Below, one piece after another: positions 1 to 2,694 of a DNA stretch of 42,405 bases. The notes below the pieces were generated by a model. That model ran no database searches and had not been told where the DNA came from. It saw only the letters and a program-made list of their open reading frames with translations. Positions within the stretch are counted from its first letter, which is position 1. Each line of letters begins with the position of its first letter. Origin of the DNA: Cytophagales bacterium (GTDB lineage: Bacteria > Bacteroidota > Bacteroidia > Cytophagales > Amoebophilaceae); the NCBI GenBank assembly GCA_020629455.1, contig JAHDDH010000005.1:1-42405 (forward strand), read 5' to 3'. The position numbers were made by a program, and so were the translations under genes.

Positions 1-144
1 AGGATTATTTTCAAAGGAGGGGTTATAGTATAGTGAAAAGGTTTGATGAGATGGTGAAACAATAAAAAAGGGAGGTGTAGAAAAAAGTTTAGAAGGTGTT
101 TTAAAATTTCTAGGATTTTTTATTTCTCGGTTGAGATATACTGA

Positions 145-714
145 CTATATTATACTGAATTTAAACCAAAAATATTTATTTAACCATTCATTATATAATT
201 TTTCTTTGAAATACAACGGTATGCCCTCCTGTTGTATGTTTTTTTTATAATTTTTACCTTGATATACTATTTTCCTTATCTTCATCTTCTGATATTTTTT
301 TATATGTAAAGCTATTATCTGCTATATTATTATCTAAATTTTATTGCTTCTCTTTCTGCTTTTCCATTTTTTGTTCCCATTTTTTTCGATTTCTTTTCAA
401 ATTTTTCATCTGTCTCATTGAAGTTTTTTGCTATTATTTCGTCTAAAAAATTTTTTTCTTCTGTATTGAGTGTCGTGTTACATACAACTCCTGAATTACG
501 TAAAAAAATATTTTTTGCCAGAATAATCATTTCCTCTTGTAGAAACATCTTTTTTTTTACACTTTCCATACTTGTTTTGGTTTTTAGAGGAAGTTACTTT
601 TTTGTATGTTTTTTGTGTTGTCATTTCTATTATTTTATCTATTCTATTATTTTTTAATTTATTAACTTTTTTTATCAAAGGTGTTGAAATTTTTTTTTGC
701 TTCTTTGATAACCT
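145..714 (-). pseudogene. Frameshifted 3' continuation of the repeat lipoprotein gene
   Basis: Reading on past the TAG at 715-717 in the same frame gives a further open stretch to about 570 (includes IKKVNKLKNNRIDKIIEMTT). A change of frame near 570 then opens a 79-residue stretch (569-330, includes FLQEEMIILAKNIFLRNSG), and further frame changes open short coding-like pieces down to a TAG at 145-147. A third frame at 745-665 also looks coding (includes RIEVIKEAKKNFNTFDKK). The pieces are Lys/Glu/Asn-rich like the intact ORF. The simplest reading is that the lipoprotein once continued for 150-250 residues and its 3' half has collected indels, mostly in poly-A runs of the coding strand. After the stop at 145 the same frame stays open to base 1 but with less protein-like content; nothing else is seen in 1-144. 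Confidence 0.45.
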
Positions 715-1434
715 CTATTCTGGTATATTGAACAAAGTTACTGAGTTTTTTTTTTTGGTTTTTTGACAATCTTCTAATGTTAGTTCGAATTTTTTTTTTT
801 TGGACTGATAATTATATGCTTGTGTATGGTCTTTTTGTTGTTGTTTCATTTTTTGTAAATCTTCTAAATTTTTGTTTTTGAGCTGATTATATTTTTTGGA
901 CTGATAATTATATGCTTGTGTATGGTCTTTTTGTTGTTGTTTCATTTTTTGTAAATCTTTTAAATTTTTGTTTAGCAAGAAACTTATTTTTTCGAGCTGA
1001 TCATATGCTTGTGTATGGTCTTTTTGTTGTTGTTTCATTTTTTGTAAATCTTTTAAATTTTTGTTTAGCAAGAAACTTATTTTTTCGAGCTGATCATATG
1101 CTTGTGTATGGTCTTTTTTTTGTTTTTGTTTTTGTTTTTGTTTTTGTTGTTGTTGTTTTTGTTTCATGTTTTGTAAATCTTCTAAATTTTTGTTTAGCAA
1201 GAAACTTATTTCTTCGAGCTGATCATATGCTTGTGTATGGTCTTTTTTTTGTTTTTGTTGTTGTTGTTTCATTGTTTGAAGTAAATCCTCTATTTCTTTT
1301 TTTCTTTTTTCCTCTTTATTTTCTTGGATTTGTTGCTCTTCATATTTTTGTTTTTTATTTTTTTTGTTACAGCAAATACAACAAAAAAAAGATATGCCGG
1401 TGAAAAAAAAATAAACAATGCAAGATTTTTTCAT
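715..1434 (-). CDS. Repeat-rich putative surface lipoprotein (C-terminally truncated?)
   Basis: 239 residues. Residues 1-22 form a hydrophobic signal segment with a Cys-rich end (FFCCICC), a plausible lipobox followed directly by a Lys-rich stretch, as in outer-membrane-sorted Bacteroidota lipoproteins. Residues 23-64 are a charged Glu/Lys/Gln helix. From residue 65 a unit of about 31 residues starting DHTQAY recurs five times (residues 65, 108, 139, 170, 202); the first is lengthened by a KQ tract (about 92-107), and the last two carry NYQSKK in place of DQLEKIS. The composition predicts a long alpha-helical or coiled-coil rod. The downstream DNA looks like lost coding sequence, so the product is probably shortened. 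No catalytic motif is seen; adhesion or host contact is only a guess. The ATG at 1432-1434 precedes the signal peptide and is the natural start. Confidence 0.65.
   Translation of the reverse strand: MKKSCIVYFFFTGISFFCCICCNKKNKKQKYEEQQIQENKEEKRKKEIEDLLQTMKQQQQKQKKDHTQAYDQLEEISFLLNKNLEDLQNMKQKQQQQKQKQKQKQKKDHTQAYDQLEKISFLLNKNLKDLQKMKQQQKDHTQAYDQLEKISFLLNKNLKDLQKMKQQQKDHTQAYNYQSKKYNQLKNKNLEDLQKMKQQQKDHTQAYNYQSKKKKFELTLEDCQKTKKKNSVTLFNIPE
760..1242 (-). repeat. 93-bp in-frame tandem repeats (about 31 residues, five copies)
   Basis: On the coding strand, copies begin at 1242, 1113, 1020, 927 and 831. The two central copies (1113 and 1020) are almost identical in DNA, which suggests recent expansion or gene conversion. 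The spacing from the first to the second copy is 129 bp because a Gln/Lys codon tract has expanded there; the copy at 927 is 96 bp. Period and identity were read by eye. Confidence 0.85.
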
Positions 1435-1899: not shown

Positions 1900-2694
1900 A
1901 TGCAACAATACCTTCAGCTACTGCAAAAAGTAGTAGATCATGGCGTTAGTAAAGAAGATCGTACAGGCACAGGCACTTGGAGCCTTTTTGGTGATCAAAT
2001 GCGATTTGATCTTTCCCAAGGTTTTCCGTTGCTCACTACAAAAAAAATACATTTAAAATCTGTAATCCATGAATTATTATGGTTTTTACAAGGCGCTACC
2101 AATATTGCTTATCTCAAACAACATCAAGTCAAGATTTGGGATGATTGGGCCAATGCACAAGGCGATCTAGGGCCTATTTATGGTTATCAATGGAGAAGTT
2201 GGCCAACAGCTGACGGAAAAAAAATAGATCAGATTAAAAATGTGATTGAAAATATCCAAAAAAATCCGCACTCTCGGCGTCTTATTGTCAATGCTTGGAA
2301 CGTTGGCTCCTTGGAAAAAATGGCCCTGCCGCCTTGCCATGTACTTTTTCAGTTTTATGTATCAGCAAACACATTATCTTGCCAGCTTTATCAACGAAGC
2401 GCCGATATTTTCCTGGGGGTTCCTTTTAACATTGCGTCTTATGCATTGCTTACCATGATGATAGCACAAGTTTGTCAGTTGAAAGTAGGTACGTTTATTC
2501 ATACGTTGGGCGATGTGCATTTGTATAAAAATCATCTTGCACAAGCAAAGACACAACTCCAAAGAACGCCTAAAGTGCTTCCACGGATGATTTTGAATCC
2601 ATCCAGAAAAAATATTTTTGATTTTGTGTATGAAGATTTCCAAATACAGCACTATCATCCAGCGCCTGGCATTAAAGCGCCTATTGCTGTTTAA
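1900..2694 (+). CDS. thyA: Thymidylate synthase
   Basis: 264 residues, exactly the classic ThyA length. It methylates dUMP to dTMP with methylene-tetrahydrofolate in the cytosol. The nucleophile is Cys146 in [12 protein letters not shown]; Arg21 in the EDRTGTGT loop and Arg126/Arg127 in HSRRLIV bind the dUMP phosphate, and the segment [18 protein letters not shown] is intact. The protein ends APIAV, the usual C-terminal tail that closes over the cofactor. The start ATG at 1900 gives the standard N-terminus [14 protein letters not shown] gene is not in the window; folP at 18920 could feed the same folate pool. The next gene starts 46 bp downstream on the same strand, so the two may be co-transcribed. 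Confidence 0.97.

Follow-up and report, generated by a model that had tools for sequence, protein, structure and literature searches.

A repeat-containing orphan gene of an Amoebophilaceae bacterium that has probably eroded from its 3′ part

At the beginning of the window (a 42,405-nucleotide stretch that starts contig C3 of the source genome), an open reading frame of 239 codons is followed on the same strand by several shorter open stretches in changing frames. Are these separate small genes, chance openings in A-rich DNA, or the pieces of one longer gene? The initial annotation, made from the letters alone, proposed that a repeat lipoprotein gene had decayed. The source genome comprises 800,097 bases in 11 contigs, with a completeness of 83.7.

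The locus lies in a spacer, as shown by the genes on either side: the 3′ end of a kinase-like gene (1–65, plus strand) and thyA (1900–2694, plus strand). Bases 1–55 of the window repeat, in reversed orientation, the 55 bases with which contig C6 begins, and this exact overlap indicates that C3 and C6 are adjacent and that the kinase-like gene is completed across the join. Its body is on C6, in frame through the overlap; judged by eye from its sequence it is probably of the GHMP type, and it converges with the stretch under study. The thymidylate synthase gene is an intact, divergent neighbor (Pfam PF00303, E = 2.3e-125), with Candidatus Amoebophilus among its named matches at 71% identity. In the two named Amoebophilus/Amoebophilaceae loci among the 80 thyA loci listed (L023 and L027), the neighbors of thyA differ from those seen here.

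The 239-codon frame (1434–715, minus strand) begins with ATG, extends 264 codons when counted from the previous stop, and closes at TAG 715–717; its length and stop agree with the initial annotation. It encodes a hydrophobic N-terminus with a cluster of cysteines, followed by a Lys/Gln-rich repeat region. Five tandem units, each beginning KDHTQAY, occupy 1245–718 of the minus strand, with starts at 1245, 1116, 1023, 930, and 834; these are spaced by 43, 31, 31, and 32 codons and are hence in frame. Differences between units are almost all amino-acid-changing (in one example, 22 positions were the same, 1 differed silently, and 8 were changed), so the intact half bears no sign of strong purifying selection. 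Two long A-runs of the minus strand fall near its end: an A12 run (790–801) inside the last, diverged unit, and an A11 run (746–756) near the point where the repeat likeness stops. The final ten codons of the frame start where the A11 run stops. The residue directly before the modified cysteine of a lipobox (position −1) is normally small. Read by eye, the residues directly before the cysteines at 18, 19, 21, and 22 are F, C, I, and C, respectively, which do not fit this pattern; the lipoprotein label given by the initial annotation is thus not established for the predicted product. Just upstream of the start of the frame, a 12-base tandem repeat, TTACAAATTCAG (plus strand), occupies 1446–1472.

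Directly after the TAG, the same frame reopens on the minus strand for 72 codons (714–499, to a TAA at 496–498). Such a reopening had been described in the initial annotation, which underestimated its length at about 50 codons. Four further open stretches follow or overlap on the minus strand. The first, in frame +2, runs across the stop (811–665), and the best path through the frames takes it over 757–700, where it is favored by 3.9 log units. The next, in frame +1 (593–333, 87 codons), is Lys/Glu-rich and has its own ATG at 569, giving an ORF at 569–330. A stretch of 28 codons in frame +2 (340–257) leads on to a second opening of the original frame (58 codons, 321–148), which ends with TAG 147–145. 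Coding-like text in other frames therefore does continue down to 145, as had been claimed. This last TAG is probably the old 3′ end of the gene, and 79 bases separate it from the point where the converging kinase-like gene ends. The TAG at 715–717 may be read only owing to a frame change or may be a plain stop mutation. Composition is alike on the two sides of that stop, with a GC content of 24.8% in both 1–714 and 718–1434, and an A fraction of 0.525 in 145–714 versus 0.547 in the 239-codon frame. Further A-runs of nine bases lie at 690–698 and 550–558.

Chance was assessed with a statistic that requires no codon model, namely the fewest frame switches with which a stretch can be crossed without meeting a stop, compared with dinucleotide shuffles. 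The minus strand of 714–148, a stretch whose end points were picked after its stops had been seen, requires a minimum of 3 switches, against 10.32 ± 2.05 in shuffles; only 5 of 20,000 shuffles needed 3 or fewer. An opening of 72 codons straight after the TAG was matched by 28 of 20,000 shuffles of the same stretch. Among control gaps of the source genome (16 strand-rows from 8 gaps, 300 shuffles each), which left out 11 gaps where a likelihood hidden Markov model (HMM) had found coding segments, the lowest p value was 0.013.

We also scored the region with a three-periodic codon model that allows frame switches, for which 172 intact genes (198 kb) served as the training set. The 714–145 region reached z = 4.15 on the minus strand (equaled by 0 of 300 shuffles) and z = 2.40 on the plus strand (1 of 300), and the 239-codon frame itself z = 7.6. 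As a positive control, gene fragments given five random indels each returned z values of 3.9–8.0 in 40 of 40 cases (60 shuffles each). Across strand-gaps of at least 300 bases (60 shuffles each), 35 of 44 stayed at z ≤ 2.6; the other 9 scored 3.0–9.0, and these fall in gaps that contain an open coding segment according to the likelihood HMM. The value of 4.15 hence falls within the range of simulated frame-shifted fragments and above 35 of the 44 strand-gaps. When allowed a non-coding state, however, the likelihood HMM labels 714–145 non-coding, perhaps because the training genes contain 35% A versus 52% in this stretch. The region thus carries a coding signature broken by stops and frame changes, with which the model disagrees in absolute terms.

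A weaker trace lies upstream of the 239-codon frame, on the same strand at 1764–1482 (open over 1746–1627 and 1658–1482). It can be crossed with 2 switches versus 5.28 expected, a value as low being reached by 109 of 5,000 shuffles, and the codon model returned a z of just 1.4–1.8 for 1899–1435. This stretch is possibly a second remnant, in which case erosion may reach upstream of the frame, beyond the coordinates considered in the initial annotation.

It had also been suggested that some of the shifts lie close to A-runs of the coding strand. The A11 run named for this is present, and two of the three windows in which a switch is required hold an A-run of at least seven bases, but the third (333–340) has none of even five. 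Since such runs are very dense here, finding them near two switches is unsurprising, and the link between A-runs and frame shifts is weak.

Homology searches returned no credible relative. Across 390 genomes of the order, the 239-codon frame matched nothing but its own locus (0 of the 389 others); it also had no Pfam or NCBIfam family above cut-off and no hit in a PDB sequence search up to E = 0.01. Plasmids gave no match for this frame or for piece 330–593; among viral contigs, searched with the 239-codon frame, 20 stretches fitted a pattern and none codes for a relative. An Rfam search of 1–2000 produced a single match at E = 0.82, far under the gathering score. Piece 330–593 matched 2 of 389 other genomes, at per-genome E values of 3e-5 (30% identity, 3 internal stops) and 0.0055 (32%). 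One match falls in part on the beginning of a 262-aa ORF and on an 81-aa ORF, and the other on a 113-aa minus-strand ORF; neither was accepted as a relative, given such weak E values across 389 genomes and the three stops in the first. For piece 145–312, nothing besides itself scored better than E = 0.096 in 21 genomes of the family, and piece 496–678 had no Pfam family above the curated cut-off. Pieces 499–714 and 257–340 were covered by a DNA search of 1–1900 against the 21 family genomes, in which the best match listed besides contig C6 was to genome G189 (E = 3.4e-7, 70% over ~145 bases).

Stretch L009 of that genome (G189:C7:47144–48907) has a Lys/Glu-rich frame on its minus strand that is open through all 587 codons of the stretch. 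Compared by tblastn with this G189 frame, the 239-codon frame gave ~23% identity at E = 1e-14 without composition adjustment and no match up to E = 1 with it. Because the similarity was lost on adjustment, it was attributed to shared composition and rejected. Other candidates were set aside: a DNA match in L013 (E = 5.5e-5) that overlaps no ORF of at least 60 aa; hits of the 239-codon frame to Thg1 (17.5 bits, cut-off 29.2) and MscL (19.8 bits, cut-off 146), as well as hits of the pieces to CJH_07325 and Cas8b1 (below cut-off), all of which are probable composition effects; and, for the upstream piece 1482–1625 in the 390 genomes, one non-self match at E = 0.004 opposite a 618-aa ORF, taken as chance. 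Similarity to an intact longer relative was thus not found in the genomes searched. With no credible relative for the intact half or the searched pieces, homology cannot confirm an ancestral gene; this absence is neither support for decay nor a point against it.

We consider it fairly probable, at roughly 0.6, that the 239-codon frame and the pieces at 714–145 belong to a single, once longer orphan gene that is undergoing erosion from the 3′ side, an event of a known kind. The small number of switches, the 72-codon continuation past the TAG, the codon-model z score, the like composition, and the single direction of the pieces all favor this reading. So do the start of the last ten codons at the A11 run, near the end of the repeat likeness, and the setting in a small genome (800 kb) whose intact genes, where sampled, carry A-runs at high density. 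Judging from the span 1434–145, the ancestral gene would have had roughly 420 codons. Its 5′ part, with the hydrophobic N-terminus and the five in-frame units, would still be open, whereas three or more frame changes would have accumulated in its 3′ part, together with a stop or, in place of the stop, another pair of frame changes. With that many lesions, a full-length product would be impossible by ordinary translation. On this reading the pieces would once have been one gene, by now non-functional; slippage during replication, together with drift, would have caused its loss in a genome that is small and probably that of an intracellular bacterium. Decay, as proposed by the initial annotation, therefore accounts best for the pattern of frames, ahead of separate small ORFs or chance, while the ancestral gene itself is not demonstrated.

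Three systems invite comparison, each cited here for the cases that the sources set out. The decaying pseudogenes described for Buchnera lie in intergenic spacers of reduced symbiont genomes (PMC3164680), and the present locus resembles them as a multiply inactivated remnant between intact genes of a small AT-rich genome. The Buchnera examples given there were, however, recognized by homology to known genes, whereas no relative was found here. In Rickettsia, orphan short ORFs are reported to be fragments of ancestral genes (PMC2447293; PMC2374718); overlapping short orphan frames are likewise best read here as pieces of one lost longer gene. The ancestor in the reported Rickettsia examples came from comparison of related species, unlike the present case, where a single genome is known to carry the sequence. 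Blochmannia offers frameshifted genes with poly-A tracts that, in the cases described, are rescued by transcriptional slippage (PMC3017870; reviewed in PMC5009743). Both genomes are reduced and hold A-runs of at least nine bases inside coding sequence, but where the Blochmannia examples have a single indel in an open gene, this locus is broken in several places, and at one of these no A-run of at least five bases occurs.

Alternative explanations differ in how much of this evidence they can accommodate. The 239-codon frame could be a complete short orphan gene, with 714–145 the remnant of a different neighboring gene. The 87-codon stretch with its own ATG would fit such an arrangement, as would the weaker trace at 1764–1482, which suggests more than one eroding gene in the spacer, and no protein-family match joins the two halves. 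We nevertheless regard it as unlikely, since the frame carries on for 72 codons beyond the TAG and composition and strand are alike on either side. It is improbable that nothing has decayed and that 714–145 is an A-rich spacer whose long open stretches arose by chance. The absolute verdict of the codon model and the choice of end points after inspection would agree with a spacer; the counts of 5 and 28 in 20,000 shuffles argue against it, as does the failure of any control gap to fall below p = 0.013 on the switch statistic.

Slippage of RNA polymerase or ribosome on the A12, A11, and A9 runs might rejoin the frames at expression and yield some full-length protein, or the runs might toggle the gene on and off. 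Long A-runs do stand at or near the first break, 206 runs of at least nine bases are tolerated in sampled intact genes, and a rescue of this type is known from the Buchnera and Blochmannia cases in the cited accounts (PMC5009743; PMC3017870). Yet at least three switches would be needed, one of them confined to 333–340, and each Blochmannia case described involves one homopolymer indel in a gene that is in frame elsewhere (PMC3017870); the present locus does not have that form, and we give slippage little credence. Least probable, and in our view very unlikely, is that an intact gene was broken by homopolymer error in sequencing or assembly. The position at a contig end and the wealth of A-runs would be compatible with error. 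The exact overlap of C3 and C6 is, we infer, typical of short-read de Bruijn assembly, and the 206 A-runs of sampled genes sit in open frames, both of which argue against it. A frame-switch HMM, which would miss remnants as degraded as 714–145, picked out 57 same-strand junctions across the window plus ten stretches of the source genome, and 27 more in stretches of relatives. A start/stop check passed 43 of the 57 as gene boundaries, a further point against error, and 14 failed. On inspection by eye, four regions that hold 2 of the 14 failing junctions looked like ordinary neighboring genes, and no frame-shifted gene was recognized there. Decay of one longer gene remains the reading that we prefer.

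The density of A-runs in intact genes is an observation of wider scope. We sampled 198 kb of coding sequence from the source genome, comprising the window from 1901 onward and stretches L018 and L104–L112. This sample contains 206 A-runs of at least nine bases (1.04 per kb), compared with 179 ± 6 after synonymous shuffling. Samples of 82, 87, and 92 kb from three relatives held 0, 8, and 18 such runs, respectively, and the relative with 18 is the more AT-rich (29% GC versus 34%). Lys-Lys-Lys occurs 170 times versus 57 in within-protein shuffles, a 3.0-fold excess, against ratios of 0.38, 0.95, and 1.26 in the relatives. A-runs are sparser in spacers than in genes, at 0.31 per kb and strand. 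Loss of mismatch repair was rejected as their cause, because MutS_I lies within a 911-aa open frame (C1:35458–35790) and MutL_C within one of 632 aa (C7:7866–8279). MutL_C had no match in 3 of 21 family genomes (G189, G174, and G053), and G189 has fewer A-runs.

For comparison, 153 tracts of this kind are reported in protein-coding regions of Blochmannia vafer, in the account cited above (PMC3017870). Among the papers listed by a literature search, no title or abstract opening describes an A-run excess in this family; one of those listed (PMC2831843) deals in general terms with homopolymer tracts in the genes of prokaryotes. A bolder proposal, which we hold to be improbable, is that the lineage has undergone genome-wide in-frame growth of poly-A, and thus of poly-lysine, despite unbroken mutS and mutL, tolerated through slippage-tolerant expression. 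The present locus would then be either a failure of that tolerance or a gene expressed partly by slippage.

Taken by itself, the locus is unremarkable, another case of an orphan gene under erosion; broken genes are common in bacteria that live inside cells and whose genomes are shrinking. To annotate the locus as a set of small proteins would probably be a mistake. The excess of A-runs in intact genes deserves a study of its own, and such dense runs may offer a way to test, in symbionts of the Bacteroidota, how homopolymer growth is linked to gene loss.
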